DNA of 46,114 nt from Bacteroidales bacterium. Lineage in GTDB: Bacteria; Bacteroidota; Bacteroidia; Bacteroidales; VadinHA17. Both the position numbers and the translations under genes were made by a program. The notes under the pieces were generated by a model. That model was given only the letters and a program-made list of their open reading frames with translations. It did not search any database and had not been told where the DNA came from. This document shows positions 2,439 through 5,190 of this stretch, one piece after another. Position 1 is the stretch's first letter; every line of letters begins with the position of its first letter. Location of the stretch: assembly GCA_025455395.1 (NCBI GenBank), contig JALOMO010000044.1:1-46114 (forward strand). The letters run 5' to 3'.

Positions 2439-3299
2439 TCAGTTTAGTATACGTGTTACCGCATTGGCTGTTATGATCAGTTCTCTGAGAGAAGCGGAGT
2501 CACCCGCTTCAATATATTTCTTAAACAGGTTCATCTTTTCAATATAAGTATCAATTGCTTCAATTATTGACTTTGCGTTGCCAGTGAAGATAGGCGCCCA
2601 GGTTTCGGCTTTGCTCTTTGAGAGCCTGACAGTGCTTTCGAACCCGCCAGCGGCAAGGGATAGAATATTCTTTTCGTCCTTTTCCTTTTCCAGGACACAC
2701 AGGGCAAGGGCGAAGGATGTTATATGGGATATATGCGAGACATAGGCTACATGAATATCATGTTCTGTTGAGTTCATAAACTGAAGCTTCATGTGAAGGG
2801 ACTGAAACAGTGCGGTGATGAGATGGAGAGCATCATTATCGCTACGTTCCGGATCACATATTATCGCCACCTTGTCGGTGAAGAGCGAGTCGATTGCAGC
2901 TGCCGGCCCCGAATATTCGGTACCAGCCATCGGATGGGCTGAGACATATCTTCCCCTTGCCGGATGATGGGCTACCGTGGCAGCTATATCTGCCTTTGTT
3001 GAACCCATGTCAGTGACCACTTTGTCTGTGCCGGCGATCATATTGAGTACCTGGGGCAGCAATATGCAATTGGTGTCGACGGGAGTACAAAGCAGAGTGA
3101 TATCTGCATTTTTAACAGCCTCCTCAAGCGGCAGAAATTCATCAGCGAGTCCGCGGTACATAGATATGGTACAATGCTGCTGATTGTTATCCACTCCAAT
3201 AATCTTACCCGTAAAGCCATTTGATCTCAATCCCTTTGCCAGGGAACCCCCGATCAAACCAAGTCCAACAATGGATATTGTAACTTTCATTTTCGTCAT
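2439..3299 (-). CDS. tyrA: prephenate dehydrogenase
   Basis: N-terminal Rossmann ISIVGLGLIGGSLAKGLR and AHPMAGTEYSGP motif; overlaps upstream aminotransferase by 4 nt. Confidence 0.92.
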   Translation of the reverse strand: MTKMKVTISIVGLGLIGGSLAKGLRSNGFTGKIIGVDNNQQHCTISMYRGLADEFLPLEEAVKNADITLLCTPVDTNCILLPQVLNMIAGTDKVVTDMGSTKADIAATVAHHPARGRYVSAHPMAGTEYSGPAAAIDSLFTDKVAIICDPERSDNDALHLITALFQSLHMKLQFMNSTEHDIHVAYVSHISHITSFALALCVLEKEKDEKNILSLAAGGFESTVRLSKSKAETWAPIFTGNAKSIIEAIDTYIEKMNLFKKYIEAGDSASLRELIITANAVTRILN

Positions 3300-4477
3300 C
3301 TTGATAGGTTTAACATGTGCTTTATCCGGTCATTTGCCTCATTAATAACAGCTTCTTTGGAACAGAGAGATATTCTTACATAGTTGTTGCCATTACTGCC
3401 GAAGACAGAGCCCGGAGTGATAAAAACATAAGCTTCATTCAGAATCTTTTCTGCAAGTTCATCTCCATCCTTCCAGTTGGCAGGTACTCTCCCCCAGAGA
3501 AAAAGTCCTGACTGCTCCGGGTCATAAGAACAGCCGAGCGTGCTCATAAGCTCCTCTGCAGCCCTTCTCCTGTCGCGGTAAATTTTATTCAGTTCATTGT
3601 ACCATGTCTTCGGGGCTGAGAGCGCTGCGACGGCTGCTGCCTGGAGAGGCTGAAACATCCCCGAATCCATATTGCTTTTAACTTTCAGGATGGCATTGAT
3701 AAAATCAGCGCGACCGGCGACCATACCTATCCTCCAGCCGGCCATATTATGTGATTTGCTCAGTGAGTTAAGCTCAAGAGCAACATCCCTGGCCCCGTCA
3801 GCAGAGAATATGCTTAAGGGGTTATCATTCAGGATAAAGCTGTATGGATTATCATTGCAGAGCAGAATACCGTGCCTGCCCGCAAACGAGACAAGATTGC
3901 TGAAGATCTCCTGTGATGCTTTTCTGCCTGTGGGCATATGAGGGTAGTTTATCCACATTATTTTTACATGGTTTAACCCTGCATCTTCAATCTCTTTCAA
4001 GTCAGGAACCCAGCCGTTTTCCCGGGTCAGATTATAATATCTTACAATACCCCCGGCAAGTTTTGTTGCTGCCTCATATGTAGGGTATCCCGGATTGGGA
4101 ATAAGAACTTCATCGCCAGGATCAAGGAAAGCCATGCTGATATGCATGATCCCCTCTTTGGAGCCCATCAGCGGTAGTATCTCATCAACCGGGTTCAGGT
4201 CAGTATCGAACCACTTGTTGTACCACTGAGCAAATGCAGTGCGCAGGCCGGGGATACCGATATAGCTCTGGTAACCATGGTTGGCAGGATTTAAGGAGTT
4301 CTGATGAAGAACCTGAATAACATCCCCGGAGGGAGAAAGATCGGGGCTTCCGATTCCGAGGCTGATGACATTGATTCCGTTTTGCCTCATGGCAGCTATC
4401 TGCTTGAGTTTACTGGAGAAATAGTACTCCTGTACAAGGTTAGCTCGTGCTGCGGGTTTAATTGTAACTTGTTTCAT
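3296..4477 (-). CDS. class I/II pyridoxal-phosphate aminotransferase (probable aromatic/aspartate-type)
   Basis: Full-length 393 aa, NPGYPTYEAATKLAGG, SLSKSHNMAGWRIG PLP-lysine motif; first structural gene of aromatic operon. Confidence 0.9.
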   Translation of the reverse strand: MKQVTIKPAARANLVQEYYFSSKLKQIAAMRQNGINVISLGIGSPDLSPSGDVIQVLHQNSLNPANHGYQSYIGIPGLRTAFAQWYNKWFDTDLNPVDEILPLMGSKEGIMHISMAFLDPGDEVLIPNPGYPTYEAATKLAGGIVRYYNLTRENGWVPDLKEIEDAGLNHVKIMWINYPHMPTGRKASQEIFSNLVSFAGRHGILLCNDNPYSFILNDNPLSIFSADGARDVALELNSLSKSHNMAGWRIGMVAGRADFINAILKVKSNMDSGMFQPLQAAAVAALSAPKTWYNELNKIYRDRRRAAEELMSTLGCSYDPEQSGLFLWGRVPANWKDGDELAEKILNEAYVFITPGSVFGSNGNNYVRISLCSKEAVINEANDRIKHMLNLSR

Positions 4478-4480
4478 ATC

Positions 4481-4509
4481 AAAAAAAAAGTCCCGTTCTC
4501 GCGGGACCT
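4481..4509 (-). terminator. intrinsic terminator (attenuator) in leader of aromatic amino acid operon
   Basis: On the minus strand: AGGTCCCG-CGAGAA-CGGGACTTTTTTTTT; 6 bp GC-rich stem (8 with A-U/G-U pairs) plus 9 consecutive T, ending 3 nt before the ATG at 4477. Confidence 0.85.
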
Positions 4510-4548
4510 CTCTGTTTATATTTCTGTATTATTTAATACACTATACAA

Positions 4549-4623
4549 CTATTCAGTCCCTCTTCCTTTCTGATAATAGAAAAAGTTAAACGAATAGGTA
4601 TATTTTGCAGTTTTGCCTGTCAT
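4549..4623 (-). CDS. Phe/Tyr-rich attenuator leader peptide MTGKTAKYTYSFNFFYYQKGRGTE
   Basis: 24-codon minus-strand ORF from ATG at 4623 to TAG ending at 4549; 4 Tyr + 3 Phe within 11 codons; followed by terminator hairpin and U-tract immediately before the aminotransferase start. Below the 60-aa cutoff of the supplied ORF track. Confidence 0.8.
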   Translation of the reverse strand: MTGKTAKYTYSFNFFYYQKGRGTE

Positions 4624-4680
4624 ATCAGGTGCTAAAGTACAAAAAAACTCATACGTTGATTCCCCGGAGACAAATTAAAA

Positions 4681-4719: not shown

Positions 4720-5190
4720 ATGGCAATAGAAATTGAGAGAAAATTCCTGGTGACAGGGGATTTCAGGAATGAGGTCATTGAATCAGTAAATATCAGACAA
4801 GGTTACCTGGCGTCTGCACCGGAGCGTACTGTAAGAGTAAGGATAAAGGGCAACAGGGGATTTCTGACTGTGAAGGGAAAGACCGATGCCTCAGGTATAG
4901 GGAGGTTTGAATGGGAAAAGGAGATTGACAATGATGAGGCTGAGGATCTGTTGAACCTTTGTGAGCCCGGTATCATTGAGAAGACAAGGCACATAATTTA
5001 TGCGGGTAGCCATACATTTGAGGTGGACGAGTTTCGGGGGGAAAACAGCGGATTGATTATTGCTGAGGTCGAGCTCACATCTGCCGGGGAGGCTTTTGAT
5101 AAACCGTCATGGCTTGGACCTGAGGTTACCCATGACCATCGATACTACAACGCATGGTTGTCAAAGAATCCTTTTCGTCTCTGGAAATAG
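4720..5190 (+). CDS. CYTH domain-containing protein (triphosphate tunnel metalloenzyme)
   Basis: N-terminal MAIEIERKFLV signature, RVRIKGNRGFLTVKGK, FEWEKEI, FEVDEF motifs. Confidence 0.93.
   Translation: MAIEIERKFLVTGDFRNEVIESVNIRQGYLASAPERTVRVRIKGNRGFLTVKGKTDASGIGRFEWEKEIDNDEAEDLLNLCEPGIIEKTRHIIYAGSHTFEVDEFRGENSGLIIAEVELTSAGEAFDKPSWLGPEVTHDHRYYNAWLSKNPFRLWK

Follow-up and report, generated by a model that had tools for sequence, protein, structure and literature searches.

The best documentation of leader-peptide attenuation comes from Proteobacteria and Actinobacteria. The trpL leader of E. coli follows a four-segment logic of pairings 1:2, 2:3, and 3:4, with the leader peptide encoded over segment 1. 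Vitreschak and coworkers are said to have predicted, in 2004, some attenuators in Bacteroidetes/Chlorobi. In the C. glutamicum aroR system, a Phe-Tyr-Phe leader precedes the DAHP synthase operon (Neshat et al. 2014, as described in PMC11802643), while the E. coli trpL attenuator has itself been modelled (PMC1183508). Within the Bacteroidota, Guerin et al. 2021 (PMC9723704) reported signs of leader-peptide attenuation at F. psychrophilum amino-acid operons, among them a 5' element of pheA that is conserved in Flavobacteriaceae and has no Rfam hit. Leader-peptide-like sORFs were described in B. thetaiotaomicron (Ryan et al. 2020, PMC7366714), and the Bacteroid-trp RNA (RF01692; Weinberg et al. 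2010, PMC2864571) is a Bacteroidetes cis-regulatory RNA that is listed as a non-riboswitch.

We analyzed a 46,114-nucleotide stretch of DNA from a Bacteroidales bacterium (the window), for which a preliminary description had proposed a Tyr/Phe attenuator ahead of an aromatic amino acid operon. The letters and their translation confirmed a Tyr/Phe-rich leader ORF of 24 codons upstream of the operon, i.e., a short ORF with a codon run for the operon's own end product, and all four downstream genes that had been named were identified (Table 1). The seven aromatic codons (four Tyr and three Phe) were present as claimed but occupy 10 codons, 8 to 17, rather than 11. A GC-rich hairpin with a U9 tract, an intrinsic terminator with the core GGUCCCG...CGGGACU, was likewise found between the leader ORF and the first gene. 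Its stem starts 35 nt past the leader ORF, somewhat closer than the 40 nt or so first estimated, and the U9 tract ends 3 nt before the aminotransferase ATG (4477).

Table 1. Features of the leader and the operon, in window coordinates
Feature	Position	Strand	Basis or remark
aroA (EPSP synthase)	2-1252	minus	translation inspected; extends beyond window edge
DAHP synthase-chorismate mutase fusion	1301-2413	minus	
tyrA, prephenate dehydrogenase	2439-3299	minus	NF006307 above cut-off
Class I/II aminotransferase (PF00155), first regulated gene	3296-4477	minus	domain match
U9 tract (T9 in DNA) of terminator	4481-4489	minus	sequence
Segments 3:4, intrinsic terminator hairpin	4484-4513	minus	12 pairs including A-U, 5 G-C
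Segment 3, GGUCCC, terminator 5' arm and predicted antiterminator partner	4503-4508	minus	
Segment 2b, predicted 1:2 hairpin 3' strand, GAATAGTTGTAT, spans leader stop	4543-4554	minus	RNAalifold
Leader peptide ORF, MTGKTAKYTYSFNFFYYQKGRGTE*	4549-4623	minus	translation; class of F/Y-rich ORFs kept in relatives
Segment 2, predicted antiterminator strand GGGACU, codons 22-23	4555-4560	minus	
Control codons Y8 T Y10 S F12 N F14 F15 Y16 Y17	4573-4602	minus	translation
Segment 1, predicted 1:2 hairpin 5' strand, ATATACCTATTC, codons 7-11	4592-4603	minus	RNAalifold
TACTTTAG block, alternative -7 box, 8 nt before leader ATG	4632-4639	minus	15-relative alignment
Candidate promoter -7 box TTTTTTTG	4640-4647	minus	5/6 positions match; Bacteroidota TAnnTTTG

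We compared this locus to the described systems. It is like E. coli trpL in its four-segment logic, but the amino acid is different and the sequences are unrelated. With enterobacterial pheL (RF01859) it shares a short Phe-containing leader ORF, an intrinsic terminator, and a prephenate-pathway gene; unlike pheL, the window leader mixes Tyr and Phe, is followed by an aminotransferase as the first gene plus tyrA, and comes from a Bacteroidales host. Among 4227 Rfam models, the pheL model (Phe_leader) scored highest on the window leader (27.2 bits, E 0.016), but this is below its gathering score of 55 bits, and none of 20 relatives gave a gathering-level hit to it. C. glutamicum aroR, the closest tested system, is similar in being attenuation by ribosome stalling with an aromatic leader, but it is actinobacterial, it is reported to respond to Phe and not to Tyr, and only its Phe-Tyr-Phe motif is described (PMC11802643). 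It was also the only case found in the literature searched for Tyr-specific leader peptides. The F. psychrophilum pheA element belongs to the same phylum and the same pathway, whereas its excerpted description gives no anatomy, spacing, specificity, or tandem form and is limited to Flavobacteriaceae (PMC9723704); it is probably of the same family as the window attenuator. The Bacteroid-trp RNA is also a cis-regulatory RNA in Bacteroidetes but is named for trp, and its covariance model (RF01692) did not match the window leader up to E = 10. The mechanism considered here is classical and of a known kind and was previously suggested for pheA in Flavobacteriaceae (PMC9723704).

AT-rich DNA easily gives Phe, Tyr, Lys, and Asn codons, and the leader could in principle be a chance ORF that happens to precede an ordinary terminator. 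When the 242-nt intergenic region was dinucleotide-shuffled 20,000 times, 0.19% of the shuffles contained an ORF with at least 7 F/Y in 12 codons, and not one contained both such an ORF and a terminator. The neighbor on the opposite side, a CYTH protein gene (4720-5190), is divergent. The sole transcript reaching the hairpin is thus the operon's own, and the terminator can act on the operon's leader alone without serving an upstream gene. For a wider view, loci were gathered by whole-genome searches and by a scan of 85,462 species, one genome each, and the 112 with enough upstream DNA were counted. A locus was scored as having a leader if an ORF with at least 6 F/Y in 12 codons preceded the first operon gene, taken as pheA where present and otherwise as the aminotransferase. 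An F/Y-rich leader ORF was present at 96/112 loci, and at 71/112 it was accompanied by a strict terminator. On the antisense strand of the 112 loci, neither the ORF nor the combination occurred (0 and 0), and the corresponding values for 2240 shuffles were 2.2% and 0. A chance ORF is refuted by this conservation and by the fixed spacing described below, and we give this explanation practically no weight.

The upstream alignment of relatives that had been suggested as a check came out in favor of the attenuator, since both the leader and the terminator were found again at the genus, family, order, and class levels. Leaders are present in Bacteroides, Phocaeicola, Parabacteroides, Muribaculaceae, Chitinophaga, and Saprospiraceae, as well as in Cytophagales such as Arcicella and Flectobacillus, and the named species carrying them include Bacteroides fragilis and Phocaeicola vulgatus. 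In a phylum-wide sample of the highest-scoring pheA genes, most of them from outside the window's class, the leader was mostly absent. Because that sample was dominated by leaderless genomes outside the class, we drew an even class-level sample, in which 12 of the 16 pheA loci had a leader. The putative attenuator is a member of a family that extends through much of the class Bacteroidia and is not peculiar to the window genome.

We then turned to the antiterminator. The pairing of GGGACU with GGUCCC was at the positions first given and comprises 6 bp, including one G-U. Within the genus this helix is almost invariant, with the outermost pair lost in 3/15 relatives, so that pair counts are uninformative there and co-variation has to be drawn from the wider set. 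Terminator arms vary among groups (GGTCCC, AATCCCGC, AAGCCGACT, GGCCTCC, and others), and the partner strand changes in step. Across 84 leader-terminator pairs, predicted pairing of the stretch after the last aromatic codons with the leader's own terminator 5' arm averaged -12.3 kcal/mol, compared to -8.0 kcal/mol with the arms of other species and -5.8 kcal/mol with shuffled sequence, and 82% of the pairs reached a shuffle p of <=0.05. Co-variation across the class supports the predicted antiterminator, a mutually exclusive helix whose 5' strand begins just past the control codons. With a ribosome placed on Tyr16-Tyr17, as if stalled, the uncovered RNA had the antiterminator helix as its predicted minimum; from GGGACU onward, including the U-tract, the predicted minimum was the terminator. 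Since completion of the U-tract makes the terminator the thermodynamic winner, switching has to take place during transcription.

Going by ribosome footprints, the leading edge is at about the antiterminator start when the last aromatic codon occupies the A site. The distance from the first base of the last aromatic codon to the antiterminator start was 14.8 +/- 2.9 nt (n=84; median, 15), and it is exactly 15 nt in the window, where that codon lies at 4575-4573. This spacing was within 9-22 nt in 98% of the leaders versus 26% for shuffled sequence. In comparison with the 2.9 nt of this ruler, the s.d. was 13.5 nt when the antiterminator position was measured from the stop codon and 18 nt by chance, and the stop codon itself moves freely among relatives. 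In three leaders (L009, L016, and L035), the tail has changed frame, yet the RNA is preserved around GGGAC and TAGTT, as is segment 2b. This implies that what is conserved at the 3' end of the leader is the RNA rather than the peptide. The same observation bears on the idea that the nascent peptide binds free Tyr or Phe in the exit tunnel and stalls without uncharged tRNA, as ligand-sensing leader peptides such as TnaC do exist (PMC8429421). A sensor of that type is hard to reconcile with C-terminal residues that change frame over preserved RNA or with peptides that share only F/Y runs of varying order and length. Moreover, for a biosynthetic operon one expects shortage of the amino acid, not its presence, to be the inducing signal. 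We regard peptide-based sensing as highly improbable.

One element was missed in the preliminary description. Given 15 genus-level leaders, RNAalifold paired, unprompted, alignment columns 55-66 with columns 104-115 in addition to the terminator. This 1:2 hairpin has two pairs with compensatory changes and 90% of its cells paired, and the four double-sided changes are C-G to U-A in three sequences and U-A to C-G in one. Class-wide, the RNA from the leader start up to, but excluding, the terminator folded more stably than shuffles (mean z of -1.78, s.e.m. 0.15, n=84), while a cruder test of 1:2 pairing probability against mononucleotide shuffles gave a weak difference (0.73 versus 0.60). Many species have the antiterminator strand paired with the aromatic codons themselves. 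A 1:2 protector hairpin that would allow termination without translation was found as structure only. This predicted hairpin completes a trp-type four-segment design.

These structures also speak to whether a riboswitch, a T-box, or a protein-binding leader controls the terminator, with the ORF being incidental. Although orthologous genes are under tyrosine T-box control in other bacteria (PMC1262725), the Rfam T-box and riboswitch covariance models gave no match at cut-off in the window leader or 20 relatives, nor did any other Rfam family. The conserved structures that we found were the 1:2 and 3:4 helices with the 2:3 alternative only, and the position of the antiterminator is set by the last aromatic codon. 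Such a leader is very unlikely to account for the locus.

Upstream of the leader ORF, the candidate -7 box (genus consensus, GATTTTTG/TATTTTTG) is 16 nt from the leader ATG in the window, compared to a class mode of 17-21 nt. In the neighboring TACTTTAG block, alignment columns T19 A20 T22 T23 T24 are invariant in 15 relatives. Promoter matches of the form TTTG-N18-21-TAnnTTTG, at 9/10 positions or more, were found upstream of 52/84 leaders versus 39/1680 random places. The promoter is degenerate in the window's genus, where the -33 box is weak, so the predicted transcription start is uncertain by about 8 nt. In four of the Tyr-only leaders of Cytophagales (L053, L055, L067, and L073; YYYYY or similar), the ATG is 4-5 nt after the -7 box, and this closeness suggests leaderless leader peptides.

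The short ORF MSFFVL (4632-4652) had been put forward as a possible second translated leader. It lies partly in the conserved promoter block, with the TAG inside TACTTTAG as its stop codon, and it begins upstream of the likely transcription start. In addition, an ATG-started ORF ending at this TAG was present in only 2 of the 15 aligned genus-level leaders (the window and L012), and we rejected MSFFVL as a leader. A further upstream candidate promoter, TTAATTTG, near 4678-4671, would put MSFFVL into the transcript if used, but the ORF would still be unconserved.

Taken together, we believe, with a probability of roughly 0.93, that this leader is a ribosome-mediated transcription attenuator through which the charging of Tyr- and Phe-tRNA controls the aminotransferase-tyrA-DAHPS/CM-aroA operon. 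The interpretation first offered is supported by conservation, antiterminator co-variation, fixed spacing, and codon identity that tracks operon content, all of which, like the parts themselves, were read from sequence comparison. In our model, transcription would start just upstream of the leader ORF. With charged Tyr- or Phe-tRNA scarce, the ribosome would stall on codons 8-17 and open the 1:2 hairpin, and at the last control codon its leading edge would be at the start of GGGACU (4560). The freed GGGACU would capture GGUCCC as it emerges (4508-4503), so that no terminator would form and the operon would be read. With Tyr and Phe plentiful, the ribosome would reach the stop codon and cover GGGACU, and hairpin 3:4 with U9 would terminate transcription 3 nt before the first gene. 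Without translation, the 1:2 hairpin (4603-4592 with 4554-4543, plus an upper stem) would hold GGGACU, making termination the default. We infer the stalling, the termination switch, the response to tRNA charging, and a role for both amino acids at this locus.

The closeness of the U9 tract to the aminotransferase ATG raises the question of whether the hairpin, in addition to attenuating, keeps ribosomes from initiating on readthrough RNA. Among relatives, the terminator can be a few nt or more than 100 nt away from the start codon, so this spacing is unconserved, and we consider such an added effect unlikely.

We next asked how the control codons relate to the genes that follow. The ratio Tyr/(Tyr+Phe) in the leaders was 0.44 with pheA heading the operon (62 leaders) and 0.76 without it (22 leaders) (Mann-Whitney p 4e-10). 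In a phylogenetic regression with 11 changes of pheA presence on the tree, pheA absence raised the Tyr fraction by 0.24 (p 1e-9 at best-fit lambda and 3e-6 under Brownian motion). An independent-pairs count gave 3.8 concordant and 0 discordant of 8, which is too small a number and misses 0.05. Five leaders are Tyr-only, all in Cytophagales. Conversely, four split-off pheA genes are each preceded by a separate attenuator that is Phe-only or Phe-dominated, e.g., MNLSRFFGFFFFGTG and MIDNSCIFTGFFFFIKAG. Two close relatives (L012 and L013) lack pheA in the operon yet have many Phe codons in the leader. pheA (prephenate dehydratase) was not found in genomes G022, G048 (79% complete), and G065, whose leaders (L038, L041, and L047) are almost all Tyr, and these organisms may be Phe auxotrophs.

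In the window genome, pheA (2947-3792 of contig C166) is at the end of a leuA/leuB-like operon, as it is in three genus relatives (L137-L139), and no F/Y leader of its own was found at any of these four genes. The four Tyr and three Phe codons of the window leader would fit an operon that supplies Tyr directly and Phe via chorismate/prephenate. In a narrower form of the same explanation, one amino acid alone, Phe or Tyr, would be sensed in the window genome, and the remaining codons would play no part in sensing. The control codons end in Tyr-Tyr (16 and 17), the pheA gene is in the leu-type operon without its own leader, and C. glutamicum AroR offers a precedent in a Phe-Tyr-Phe leader that is reported to respond to Phe but not to Tyr (PMC11802643). 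However, nearly all mixed leaders keep both residues, and the operon content predicts the mixture. Single-residue sensing is therefore a possibility that we hold only tentatively and rather doubt, and we favor the reading in which both Tyr and Phe count.

Other loci of the same assembly were noted in passing. The his operon (L175, also on C166, about 1194-1330) has a textbook His leader attenuator, MAINKLHHHHSHTCSQAR*, with a TACTTTTG promoter box about 20 nt upstream and then a terminator hairpin and hisG. The N-terminal domain of trpE (PF04715) was not found in this genome, whose assembly is 89% complete, and the organism may be a Trp auxotroph. A second leader-aminotransferase-tyrA-DAHPS copy with its own leader, MKNSRTYYFTFNYFFYYRDKGTDSYMES, is on a 3568-bp contig (L035, contig C189) at about 80% DNA identity; it either comes from a contaminating related species or represents a paralogous operon.

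Leader-terminator units are tandem at 10 loci. Five are in the window's family or order by group code (L026, L032, L034, L038, and L041), three in Chitinophaga (L097, L100, and L121), one in Saprospiraceae (L103), and one in Phaeodactylibacter (L077). Serial attenuators would yield a steeper, multiplied response. In the literature searched, we found no description of the class-wide extent, the fixed ruler, the Tyr-only leaders, the link to pheA, or the tandem units. The Tyr-only forms are a possible new variant.

We think it likely that these leaders make up an unnamed attenuator family, spread through much of the Bacteroidia, in which evolution has re-tuned the sensed residue to the operon product: mixed Phe/Tyr with pheA, Tyr-dominated or Tyr-only (YYYYY) where pheA was lost or moved, and Phe-only on split-off pheA, with about ten loci in tandem form. 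The Tyr-only leaders would then be the first tyrosine-dedicated ribosome-mediated attenuators. For gut and environmental Bacteroidota, the presence of such leaders ahead of the aromatic operon in much of the class, with parts that co-vary and a ruler that is nearly constant, offers an amino-acid switch that can be tested directly. The repeated loss or move of pheA serves as a natural experiment in which leader codon identity follows the operon product, a pattern that points to sensing, not the peptide, as the target of selection. Finally, the genomes with Tyr-only leaders allow one to ask whether attenuation can sense tyrosine at all.
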